Shown here one piece after another: positions 37,599 to 57,405 of a stretch of 64,000 bases of DNA. The number at the start of each line of letters is the position of its first letter. Position 1 is the stretch's first letter. A program made the translations under genes and the position numbers. Where the stretch lies: NCBI GenBank assembly GCA_024682455.1, contig JAIKZF010000097.1, forward strand, positions 25,767 to 89,766, given 5' to 3'. The notes under the pieces were generated by a model. That model was given only the letters and a program-made list of their open reading frames with translations, ran no database searches and was not told where the DNA came from. This DNA is from Ruminiclostridium sp. (GTDB taxonomy: Bacteria; Bacillota; Clostridia; Oscillospirales; Ruminococcaceae).

Positions 37599-37674
37599 TG
37601 GAGCGGATTACGAGGCTCGAACTCGCTACCTCCACCTTGGCAAGGTGGCGCTCTACCAGATGAGCTAAATCCGC
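37599..37674 (-). tRNA. tRNA-Gly (GCC)
   Basis: Cloverleaf on the minus strand with acceptor GCGGATT/AATCCGC, anticodon loop TTGCCAA (GCC), T-loop TTCGAGC and encoded CCA. Confidence 0.97.
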
Positions 37675-37698
37675 ATCTCCGATCATATAGACCGAAGT

Positions 37699-37774
37699 TG
37701 GTGCTTCCGGTCGGAATCGAACCAACGACACGGGGATTTTCAGTCCCCTGCTCTACCAACTGAGCTACAGAAGC
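37699..37774 (-). tRNA. tRNA-Phe (GAA)
   Basis: Minus strand; acceptor GCTTCTG/CGGAAGC, anticodon arm GGGGA-CTGAAAA-TCCCC (GAA), T-loop TTCGATT, encoded CCA. Confidence 0.97.
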
Positions 37775-37827
37775 ATATCCCGGAACAGTCAAGCGTACTG
37801 TCCGGAAAACCGATCAGCGCAATGCGC

Positions 37828-37904
37828 TGGCGACCCGAATGGGGCTCGAACCCATGACCTCTAGCGTGACAGGCTAGCGTTCTAACCAGCTGAACTACCG
37901 GGCC
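37828..37904 (-). tRNA. tRNA-Asp (GTC)
   Basis: Minus strand; anticodon arm CTAGC-CTGTCAC-GCTAG (GTC), T-loop TTCGAGC, G discriminator, encoded CCA. Confidence 0.97.
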
Positions 37905-37952
37905 GTATATCGCTTACGCGCAAAAGCGCTGTATCCGCCGAATGATCGCGGA

Positions 37953-38028
37953 TGGTGGGAGTTACAGGGCTCGAACCTGTGACCCTCTGCTTGTAGGGCA
38001 GACGCTCTCCCAGCTGAGCTAAACTCCC
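37953..38028 (-). tRNA. tRNA-Val (TAC), with C at position 33
   Basis: Minus strand; acceptor GGGAGTT/AACTCCC, D-arm GCTC/GAGC, anticodon arm TCTGC-CCTACAA-GCAGA with TAC at 34-36, T-loop TTCGAGC and encoded CCA. The loop has C at position 33, where nearly all elongator tRNAs have U. All other positions look functional. Confidence 0.93.
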
Positions 38029-50538: not shown

Positions 50539-51633
50539 ATGAAACTCGGTATGGTAGGACTCCCGAATGTCGGGAAAAGCACTTTATTCAACGCACTCAC
50601 GAACGCGGGAGCCGAATCGGCTAACTATCCGTTCTGCACCATTGAGCCTAATGTAGGCGTGGTATCGGTGCCGGACGAACGGCTCGACAAGCTCGCGGAA
50701 ATGTACAAGCCCGAAAAATTCACACCGGCTATGCTTGAATTCGTAGATATAGCGGGACTGGTCAAGGGCGCGTCCAACGGCGAAGGACTGGGCAACAAAT
50801 TCCTCGCGAATATCCGTGAGGTGGACGCGATAATCCACGTAGTGCGGTGCTTCGAGAACGATAATATCGTACACGTCGACGGAAGCATCGGAGCAAAGCG
50901 TGATATCGAAACTATAAATCTCGAACTGATATTCAGCGACATCGAGATACTCGGCAGACGTATCGACCGCGAGAAAAAGCTCGTAAAGGGCGACAAGTCG
51001 CTCCAGAAGGAAATAGACTTTCTTGAGAAGCTCATGGCGCATCTCGAAGAGGGCAGATCGGCGAGATCCTTCGACTTCACGGAGGACGAGGCCGAGATAA
51101 TAAAATCCACTCCCCTGCTCTCCAACAAGCCTGTCATTTACGCGGCGAACCTCAGCGAGGACGACTTCCGCAGCAATTATGAGAACAACGAGCAGTACAA
51201 GGCGGTAAAAGCGATCGCCGAGGAGGAGAACAGCGCCGTTCTCCCTATCTGTGCACAGATAGAGGCTGATATCGCGGATATGGACGCGGAGGAAAAGGAG
51301 CTGTTCCTGTCAGATCTCAACCTGACCGAATCGGGACTTTCAAGAATAATCAAGACCGGCTACTCGCTGCTCGGACTTATATCGTTCCTCACCGCGGGTC
51401 CGCAGGAGGTACGCGCGTGGACTATCACAAAGGGTACAAAGGCTCCGCAGGCTGCCGGCAAGATACACACGGACTTTGAGAAGGGCTTCATAAGAGCGGA
51501 GGTCGTTTCCTTCGACGATCTCGTAAGCTGCGGCGGCATGACCGGAGCCAAGGAAAAGGGACTTGTACGGCTCGAAGGAAAAGACTACGTCATGCAGGAC
51601 GGAGATGTCGTTCTGTTCAGGTTCAATGTATAA
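50539..51633 (+). CDS. ychF: redox-regulated ATPase YchF
   Basis: The 364-aa protein starts MKLGMVGLPNVGKST, the modified P-loop of YchF, followed by the DIAGLVKGAS G3-like region and the C-terminal TGS domain with KIHTDFEKGFIRAEV. YchF hydrolyses ATP rather than GTP and associates with ribosomes. A good AAAGGAAC ribosome site precedes it. It overlaps the NERD gene by 1 bp. Confidence 0.97.
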   Translation: MKLGMVGLPNVGKSTLFNALTNAGAESANYPFCTIEPNVGVVSVPDERLDKLAEMYKPEKFTPAMLEFVDIAGLVKGASNGEGLGNKFLANIREVDAIIHVVRCFENDNIVHVDGSIGAKRDIETINLELIFSDIEILGRRIDREKKLVKGDKSLQKEIDFLEKLMAHLEEGRSARSFDFTEDEAEIIKSTPLLSNKPVIYAANLSEDDFRSNYENNEQYKAVKAIAEEENSAVLPICAQIEADIADMDAEEKELFLSDLNLTESGLSRIIKTGYSLLGLISFLTAGPQEVRAWTITKGTKAPQAAGKIHTDFEKGFIRAEVVSFDDLVSCGGMTGAKEKGLVRLEGKDYVMQDGDVVLFRFNV

Positions 51634-52400
51634 TGAAGATCTATAAAAGCAGGAATCCCAACAAGATAAGGATAGGCGTACTGTTCGCGCTGCAGGTCAT
51701 ATTCGGGGCGCTGCCGGCGATACTGTTCGTTATCTTCGCGGTGGACAATATGCGCTTCGCAAACTCGAACCCGGAGAGCATCGCGGCATCGACCAATTTC
51801 ATCGGCGCCTATGTTTCGGCGGCGGCTATCGTTCTGTGCGCTCTCGCATACTTTATTCTCGCGAGAAGATACAACATACTGCTCTCGGGCATCAAGGGCG
51901 AGCGCTCGCTGGCAAAGATCGCGAAACGCCACAGGAACCATTACGACATCTTCATCAACTACCCCATTCAGTATAAGCGCAACCGTTCGGAGATAGACAT
52001 GATACTCGTGGGCAAGGACGGTCTCATCATCATAGAGGTCAAGAACCACTCGGGTACTGTCTGCGGCTCCGACAGCGATGAAAAGTGGTGTCAGTACAAG
52101 CACTACAAGGACGGCAGGAATACCGAAGCGGAGATGAAGAACCCTATCAAGCAGATCACAAGGCAGCGCGATATACTGAAAAGCATACTGCATGCCAACG
52201 GCGTTGACGCGTGGATCGACGGTATCGTGTATTTCTCGAACCCTATGATAAGACTGAAACTCTCCCTGAAAAACAAGAGCAGCATAGTCTGTGCGGGTGA
52301 AAAGGAGCTTGACAAGTTCCTCACGAACTACACGTCTCCCAGACCGCTGAAAAAAGAGGATACCGAAAAGATACTTGAAGCCCTGCGTTCGCAGATGTAA
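51633..52400 (+). CDS. NERD domain membrane protein
   Basis: The 255-aa protein has two N-terminal membrane helices (about 17-36 and 60-76) and a cytoplasmic NERD domain with GERSLAKIAKR, the acidic residue in EIDMILVG and EVKNHSG, the E-D-EVK pattern of the PD-(D/E)XK-like nuclease fold. A C-terminal helical part follows. NERD proteins are thought to act in DNA processing, but activity is rarely tested. It is coupled to ychF by a TAATG overlap. Confidence 0.85.
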   Translation: MKIYKSRNPNKIRIGVLFALQVIFGALPAILFVIFAVDNMRFANSNPESIAASTNFIGAYVSAAAIVLCALAYFILARRYNILLSGIKGERSLAKIAKRHRNHYDIFINYPIQYKRNRSEIDMILVGKDGLIIIEVKNHSGTVCGSDSDEKWCQYKHYKDGRNTEAEMKNPIKQITRQRDILKSILHANGVDAWIDGIVYFSNPMIRLKLSLKNKSSIVCAGEKELDKFLTNYTSPRPLKKEDTEKILEALRSQM

Positions 52401-52525
52401 CGTTCCGGAGCGGTTTTATGTAACCGTTCTGCAAGCCTTGGTGGTAACCTTTTACAATTTTGTGACGGGCTTTTTGTAATAATGTATAAATTTTCGCTTT
52501 TTGTTAACTTTTTTTGTATATGTTA

Positions 52526-52554
52526 TTGACAAAAAGTTAAATAAGCGTTATAAT
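52526..52554 (+). promoter_or_regulatory. promoter of candidate sRNA
   Basis: Perfect TTGACA (52526-52531), 17-bp spacer, perfect TATAAT (52549-52554), with no gene behind it, only a structured 144-base region ending in a terminator. Confidence 0.88.
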
Positions 52555-52559
52555 GCAAT

Positions 52560-52703
52560 TGTAAGAAGAGGTCAGCAGCGGCTGCCTGTTCTTACAGAAG
52601 ATTGTTTTGACTTTTCGTTTTGTTTTAGTTGTCTCCTTTCTTTTGTTCTACACATTATACATTATTTCAGTTTGAGAACCGGTTTTCGGTTCTCTCTTTT
52701 TTT
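52560..52703 (+). ncRNA. candidate trans-acting sRNA with anti-Shine-Dalgarno stretch
   Basis: From a consensus promoter, the predicted transcript starts with hairpin TGTAAGAA/TTCTTACA (inner GCAGC/GCTGC), continues with a U/C-rich single strand containing GTCTCCTTTCTTTTG, complementary to AAAGAAAGGAG-type ribosome sites common in this window, and ends with terminator GAGAACCG/CGGTTCTC plus a T run. This layout is typical of Firmicutes regulatory RNAs. The ORF 52501-52815 across it has no ribosome site and starts upstream of the promoter. The 120 bp after it contain nothing I recognise. Confidence 0.65.
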
Positions 52704-52857: not shown

Positions 52858-54045
52858 ATGAATGCTTTTTCGGACAGAATACGCAGACTTCAGCCCTCCG
52901 CGATACGTGAGATACTGAAATTCACCTCCTACCCCGATGTTATAAGCTTTGCAGGCGGAAATCCCGCGCCGGAGGCTTTCCCAGTACAGGAAGTCAAGGA
53001 GATAATGAACGACATTATGGACAACGACCCCATTACAGCTCTCCAGTATTCGGTGTCCGAAGGATATACTCCCCTGCGCGACTGGCTCAAGGACGATCTC
53101 GCCAACAAGGGCATCTTCAACTGGAACAACGACGATCTCATCATAACCGCCGGTGCTCAGCAGGTAATGGAAATGACCTCGAAGGTCATCTGCAACGAGG
53201 GTGATGCAATAATCTGCGAGGAGCCCAGCTTCATCGGCTCGCTCAACTCCTTCCGCTCCTATAACGCGAGACTTCTCGGCGTGCCTATGGACGATGAGGG
53301 CATTGATATCGAAAAGCTCGACGAGACCCTGCGCAACAACAGACGCACAGCTTTCATCTACCTGATACCCAATTTCCAGAACCCCACCGGCAGAACAATG
53401 AGCCTCGAAAGAAGAAAGCAGGTGCTTGAGCTCGCTTATAAGTACAATGTCTACATCATCGAGGACAACCCCTACGGCGACCTGAGATTTTCGGGAGACG
53501 ACGTTCCGAGCTTACGCTCCATGGATACAAAGGGTCTCGTGATCTACGCGGGAACATTCTCAAAGACCGTAGCTCCTGGACTGCGCGTGGGCTATATGGT
53601 AGCCGAGAAGAGCGTCATCTCCAAGGCGATCTGCGCTCTCCAGGTATCGACCGTTCATACGAGCATCCTTTCGCAGATGATAGTACATCGCTTCATCACA
53701 AAGTACGACTACCCCGCTCACCTCGAAAAGATACGCGGCATTTACGGTCACAAGTGCGACCTCATGCTCACCAACCTTAAGCTCAAAATGCCGTCCTCGA
53801 TAAAGTTCACCGAGCCCGACGGAGGTCTGTTCATCTGGGGCACTCTGCCGAGCGGAGATATGGATTACTTCGTGAAAAAGGCTATCGAACGCAAGGTTGC
53901 GATAGTCACCGGCAAGGCGTTCCTCGTTGACGAGAACAAGCCCTGTATGTCGTTCAGACTCAACTACTCCACCCCGAGAGACGATCAGATCGAAAAGGGC
54001 GTGGATATCCTCGCCGAGGTCGCAAAGTCGATCTACAAAGCATAA
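52858..54045 (+). CDS. PLP-dependent aminotransferase, class I/II (LysN/2-aminoadipate-like)
   Basis: The 395-aa protein has VISFAGGNPAPEAFP near the N-terminus, TAGAQQVMEM, NFQNPTG, EDNPYGDLRF and the Schiff-base lysine in TFSKTVAPGLRVGYM. The pattern is that of the MocR/LysN group of fold type I transferases without the DNA-binding domain. Aromatic or 2-aminoadipate transamination is likely; the substrate is not fixed. trpS follows 27 bp later. Confidence 0.88.
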   Translation: MNAFSDRIRRLQPSAIREILKFTSYPDVISFAGGNPAPEAFPVQEVKEIMNDIMDNDPITALQYSVSEGYTPLRDWLKDDLANKGIFNWNNDDLIITAGAQQVMEMTSKVICNEGDAIICEEPSFIGSLNSFRSYNARLLGVPMDDEGIDIEKLDETLRNNRRTAFIYLIPNFQNPTGRTMSLERRKQVLELAYKYNVYIIEDNPYGDLRFSGDDVPSLRSMDTKGLVIYAGTFSKTVAPGLRVGYMVAEKSVISKAICALQVSTVHTSILSQMIVHRFITKYDYPAHLEKIRGIYGHKCDLMLTNLKLKMPSSIKFTEPDGGLFIWGTLPSGDMDYFVKKAIERKVAIVTGKAFLVDENKPCMSFRLNYSTPRDDQIEKGVDILAEVAKSIYKA

Positions 54046-57241: not shown

Positions 57242-57405
57242 AAAAAAGACTCCTTCGGCGCTTCGCCGTACGGGAGCCTAAATCCTCTTTACACTCCCTC
57301 ATCTTCCACCTCTTACGGTGCGGGAATTGGCACCTTTGCTCTCACGCAGGTTGCCGCGGCTTCATCGGACCCGTTTCCTCCGCCGCTCTTGATAAGGATA
57401 TTTTT
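57242..57405 (-). promoter_or_regulatory. SAM-I (S-box) riboswitch with terminator
   Basis: On the minus strand the leader has CTTATCAAGAG, GATGAAGCCGCGGCAACC and GGTGCCAATTCC, the S-box signatures, closed by a P1 stem (AAATATCCT with AGGATTT). It is followed by a terminator stem (57248-57278, GGCTCC...GGAGTC with inner CGGCG/CGCCG) and six T residues. SAM binding should favour the terminator and reduce metK. Confidence 0.96.

Follow-up and report, generated by a model that had tools for sequence, protein, structure and literature searches.

A candidate regulatory RNA of Ruminococcaceae and phages with an invariant core that includes an anti-Shine-Dalgarno motif

The csRNAs of streptococci are multi-copy small RNAs (sRNAs) under the control of CiaR. 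The RNA gene analyzed here resembles them in its intrinsic terminator and in its short stand-alone product, in which a stretch complementary to the Shine-Dalgarno (SD) sequence is left unpaired, whereas it is usually present in a single copy and matched no such family in an Rfam scan. RsaE/RoxS, sRNAs of the Firmicutes Staphylococcus and Bacillus, pair with SD sequences through C-rich regions (PMC4409812). The present RNA is likewise a predicted stand-alone Firmicutes sRNA, with pyrimidine-rich regions that are unpaired and complementary to SD, and shares with RsaE/RoxS the strong conservation across genera while targets differ (PMC4409812). Unlike them, it has one long invariant CUCCUUUCUUUUGUUC core instead of several short C-rich regions, and it belongs to another bacterial family. 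None of the 4227 models of Rfam 15 matched above the gathering score, the RsaE covariance model gave no match at the gathering threshold or up to E = 10, and a relaxed threshold for Rfam yielded nothing credible. Phage genomes are also described as carriers of regulatory RNAs, including E. coli prophage-encoded sRNAs and other phage-derived sRNAs (PMC13192938, PMC12197685). The phage copies found in this study agree with these in being phage-borne, but differ in that their core is identical to that of a core-genome sRNA in the presumed hosts and in that they adjoin initiator-like tRNAs. A literature search for Ruminococcus sRNAs found nothing relevant, and Ruminococcus was unmentioned in the main text of a large human-microbiome survey of candidate RNAs (PMC8040213), the supplements of which may contain an earlier computational listing of the RNA. 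We regard the RNA as a new sRNA family, not an RsaE member by Rfam, with a putative RsaE/RoxS-like working, distinguished by its unusual, invariant core and by its copies in phages.

The window, a 64,000-nt stretch of Ruminiclostridium sp. DNA, carries the gene at 52526-52703 on the forward strand, in the intergenic region between a NERD gene (51633-52400) and an aminotransferase gene (52858-54045). The sequence-only reading had placed here a stand-alone transcript with a perfect promoter, a 5' hairpin, an unpaired C/U-rich stretch and a strong terminator, and these four elements were borne out by the comparison of copies. The sigma-A promoter (52526-52554) matched the consensus at 12/12 positions, with TTGACA at 52526-52531, a 17-nt spacer and TATAAT at 52549-52554. 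Transcription was predicted to start at about 52561, where the 5' hairpin (about 52560-52596) begins in the RNA fold. The unpaired core GUUGUCUCCUUUCUUUUGUUCUACACA, including the anti-SD motif CUCCUUUCU, occupies 52628-52654 and is followed by an A/U-rich linker (52655-52673), conserved in the alignment of near relatives only, and by an intrinsic terminator (52674-52703) recognized from its sequence pattern, consisting of a 9-bp stem (52674-52694) with a 3-nt loop and a U-tract. The predicted RNA is about 143-144 nt long at this locus, and copies elsewhere are mostly 100-140 nt. Folding of the 144-nt RNA gave a minimum free energy of -37.7 kcal/mol (z = -3.86), and none of 200 shuffles was that low. 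Pattern scans of a single genome are weak evidence taken alone; the scan for terminator-like sites found 2, when compared to 2.1 expected by shuffling. The gene was judged to be real because conservation decides where such scans stay weak. An AT-rich block 5' of the promoter at 52450-52500 (AATTTTGTGAC...TTTTTGT...TGTATAAA) was conserved in near relatives and is a possible candidate for a regulator site. Elsewhere in the window, a SAM riboswitch (57296-57398) and four clustered tRNA genes (37602-38028) were located on the reverse strand.

Among the 156 distinct copies from hosts, 143 had a promoter that agreed with the consensus at 11 or more of the 12 positions, which held for none of 172 shuffled upstreams, and the predicted 5' ends of the host copies start at the hairpin. 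Covariance of homologues, which had been proposed as a check, agreed with the 5' hairpin: the covariation of the outer stem in 24 distinct stems was 0.519 compared with 0.269 for shuffled ones, with 0/500 shuffles as high and slid registers reaching 0.152 at most. The proportion of paired cells in these stems was 91.7%, against 78.7% when shuffled, a value that leans high because the register was picked by script for maximal pairing and the loop was replaced with a fixed linker. The cells changed on both sides of the stem are safer evidence than this percentage, and such compensated changes (AGUG/CACU, GAUG/CAUC and GGUG/CACC) occurred in the outer stem of the Ruminococcus-type copies. The core was unpaired in most predicted folds, and most complete copies had a terminator of differing sequence at the same place. 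The neighbors in the genus of the window were NERD plus an aminotransferase or an M16-like peptidase, the latter named by eye from its sequence. In Ruminococcus-type genomes (L063-L182), the sRNA was often divergent from pyruvate:ferredoxin oxidoreductase (PFOR), with 41 loci found, and the flanking genes change between genera. The element might act in cis as a leader of the aminotransferase gene, which is the next gene in the window on the same strand; this is very improbable, as the terminator lies between the two, and the gene downstream is not the same in all genomes and, for 38 of 162 copies, lies on the other strand. Since promoter, hairpin, core and terminator were conserved amid different gene neighborhoods, the assignment as a stand-alone trans-acting sRNA, with its own promoter and terminator independent of the neighboring genes and a conserved RNA structure with an exposed seed, is well supported at the level of sequence comparison. 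A genuine role of the RNA in regulating protein synthesis is very probable.

When a 221-base query was used, relatives turned up in 57 of 119 genomes, almost all belonging to the same genus, with the matches centered on the core. The exact core 22-mer was present on at least 120 genome contigs, including, among the matches listed, those of Ruminococcus flavefaciens, R. albus 8, Ruminococcus sp. YE71 and Anaerotruncus sp. MC2020; one listed match was an Alistipes-labelled MAG, possibly a mis-binned contig. When 298 sampled genomes of the family were searched for the 21-mer GTTGTCTCCTTTCTTTTGTTC with up to two mismatches, it was detected in 123 genomes representing 29 of 95 genera. The exact 21-mer, with core positions 1-21 all identical, occurred in 120 of these 123, in one copy each as counted from the results table, and exact core matches were confined to the own family in the 394 genomes of the order that were searched. 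One copy per genome was the usual number; G028, outside the 298-genome sample, had two full core copies (L024). The run of 21-23 contiguous bases was invariant across the 29 genera and the phage copies described below. Judged from these alignments, the 21-nt core is under exceptional constraint, and its invariance across the family and in phages, a feature beyond a single-sequence view, is the most important one of this RNA. At L023, L025 and L045 (genomes G040 and G066), partial copies occurred in tandem, with the GC-rich repeat GGCGTCCCCGACGCCCCG taking the place of the 5' portion of the core. A second anti-SD motif, GACCUCC, was observed 5' of the core in some species (L013, L015, L021, L022, L026, L029 and L030).

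The frame TTG-TCT-CCT-TTC-TTT-TGT-TCT-ACA is open across the core and has ATG or GTG as the first codon in some phage copies, which could point to a short coding gene. Nevertheless, the core was judged not to be coding because synonymous change in it was absent from the 120 genomes. The frame had no SD on its 5' side, its start codon was lost in L050 and G537 with the remainder kept, and indels disrupt it in L264 and L265. A coding function is scarcely credible, and the conserved coding frame that the sequence-only reading had named as contrary evidence did not run through the core.

The core 22-mer was also detected on 23 IMG/VR contigs (L183-L205), which are partly non-independent, with several pairs and triplets having near-identical flanks and other flanks differing widely. 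A search for an exact pattern is biased against variants. With four or three internal positions unspecified, the same bases were retained in all 23 contigs. A relaxed search gave three further matches, two in an unrelated sequence context and one real variant (L434), in which CTCT replaces CTCC and the anti-SD is altered to CUCUUUUCU with the remainder intact. In most phage copies, the core was flanked by hairpins on its 5' and 3' sides, the same layout as in the host sRNA, and in L190/L191 an 11/12 promoter ended just 5' of the core and a terminator of its own was present. L204 was marked as phage by terminase, portal and major head proteins and L200 by terminase, and L186 and L205 encode a phage-type SSB. 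Most of the 23 contigs had a tRNA close to the core, as detected with ARAGORN; its anticodon was usually CAT, and the core was usually just upstream of this CAT tRNA (for example L204:2040-2205). The adjoining CAT tRNAs had a mismatch of A72 with G1 or C1, a feature of initiator tRNAs, and we infer from it that they are initiator tRNAs. The phage core was mostly flanked by replication/methylase genes and packaging genes. A role as the phage attachment site (attP) was rejected, as the inspected contigs place the core between replication and packaging genes with the hairpins kept. Among phage GenBank records, none covered 80% of the core and the matches were of low significance, and a search for self-targets of the core in the phages gave none that was convincing. 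The phages bearing the core would probably steer translation with it, either that of the host or their own.

The 16S tail of G014 ends with CACCUCCUUUCU, and the core has the identical CUCCUUUCU and then diverges. The core is therefore able to pair with typical ribosome sites. The idea that the core was copied from the pre-16S 3' trailer was rejected, the trailer differing beyond CUCCUUUCU. The complementarity behind the anti-SD seed of the sequence-only reading was thus real, but 8 of 59 window genes had at least 7 nt of complementarity at the ribosome site, and the mean duplex energy of the window genes (-10.7 kcal/mol) showed no excess over that of a control with the anti-SD kept and the flanks shuffled (-10.4 +/- 0.4 kcal/mol). 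When 211-556 5' UTRs were analyzed, clear enrichment was limited to the SD-like portion of the core complement, and AGAAAGGA-type ribosome sites were common in the genus (24/211 5' UTRs). This frequency, the identity of CUCCUUUCU with the 16S tail and the initiator-like tRNAs adjoining the phage copies would be consistent with a broad anti-SD mimic, an RNA with no dedicated targets that competes with the 16S tail at numerous ribosome sites and, under some condition, lowers initiation globally. We consider such a mimic improbable, as the bases outside the anti-SD, needless for it, are equally invariant, and the phage copy L434 has a changed anti-SD with the rest intact.

The further claim, that many mRNAs could be repressed, was examined with the extended complement AGAACAAAAGAAAGGA. 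With up to one mismatch and leaving out the sRNA itself, it occurred at 58 sites in 42 genus genomes, compared with 23 and 29 in two permuted-upstream controls that keep AGAAAGGA; outside the genus, 11 sites were found against 8 and 9. The about two-fold enrichment in the genus, obtained from related genomes with two controls only and, like the other genome-wide target statistics, by pattern searches, is suggestive only as a sign of many mRNA targets. Forty-six of 59 inspected AGAACAAAAGAAAGGA-type sites were ribosome sites 5' of a start codon, and the genes at those sites, identified by eye, included feoA, DegV, yajC, metA, hfq, an HPr-like gene, pucR, groEL and clpB. However, the extended pairing was species-specific and not conserved in the orthologues of feoA, hfq and pucR, with usable starts for only some of the hfq loci. 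The divergent PFOR in Ruminococcus had no higher complementarity than shuffles. The anti-SD reading of the core is plausible but unproven. Because the pairing in the window does not exceed the anti-SD-preserving control, the invariant flanking bases need another reason, and SD pairing leaves the fixation of every core base unexplained because it tolerates substitutions.

A near-perfect partner RNA (24-mer, up to three mismatches) was searched in the own genome, about 86% complete, and nothing was found beyond the sRNA locus; complementarity to the core in the 16S/23S operon (rrn of G014) was not above that of shuffled cores. These results, the invariance of the contiguous bases in hosts and phages and the display of the core as a U-rich single strand between hairpins would fit a protein-binding RNA, in which the core is the site for a conserved RNA-binding protein or the translation initiation machinery, the sRNA titrates or carries the factor like CsrB, 6S or an Hfq sponge, and the phage copies titrate the same factor. 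We hold this possibility only tentatively, as about 21 fixed bases are seldom needed by proteins, and the anti-SD block and the genus-specific enrichment at ribosome sites would be coincidental. It is rather unlikely that a dedicated translation-initiation factor or ribosome-associated complex of this bacterial family recognizes the invariant core, and that phages copy the core along with an initiator-like tRNA and so seize control of initiation during infection.

We lean slightly towards a trans-acting sRNA with an RsaE/RoxS-like mode, pairing through the core with SD-containing 5' UTRs. The hairpins would stabilize the RNA and present the core, which would pair through CUCCUUUCU plus flanking bases with these 5' UTRs and block 30S binding in the fashion of RsaE/RoxS. 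Hfq, encoded in 40 of the 42 genus genomes, perhaps assists the pairing. The extra invariant bases would point to an additional constraint: different parts of the core might serve several targets, or a protein might bind it.

Little has been recorded on the regulatory RNAs of fibre-degrading gut Ruminococcaceae, and the literature search found none. The core either controls many mRNAs via one fixed seed or binds something conserved, and both options are directly testable, as the carriers R. albus and R. flavefaciens are culturable. Through the phage copies beside initiator-like tRNAs, the control that phages exert over host translation could be approached independently.
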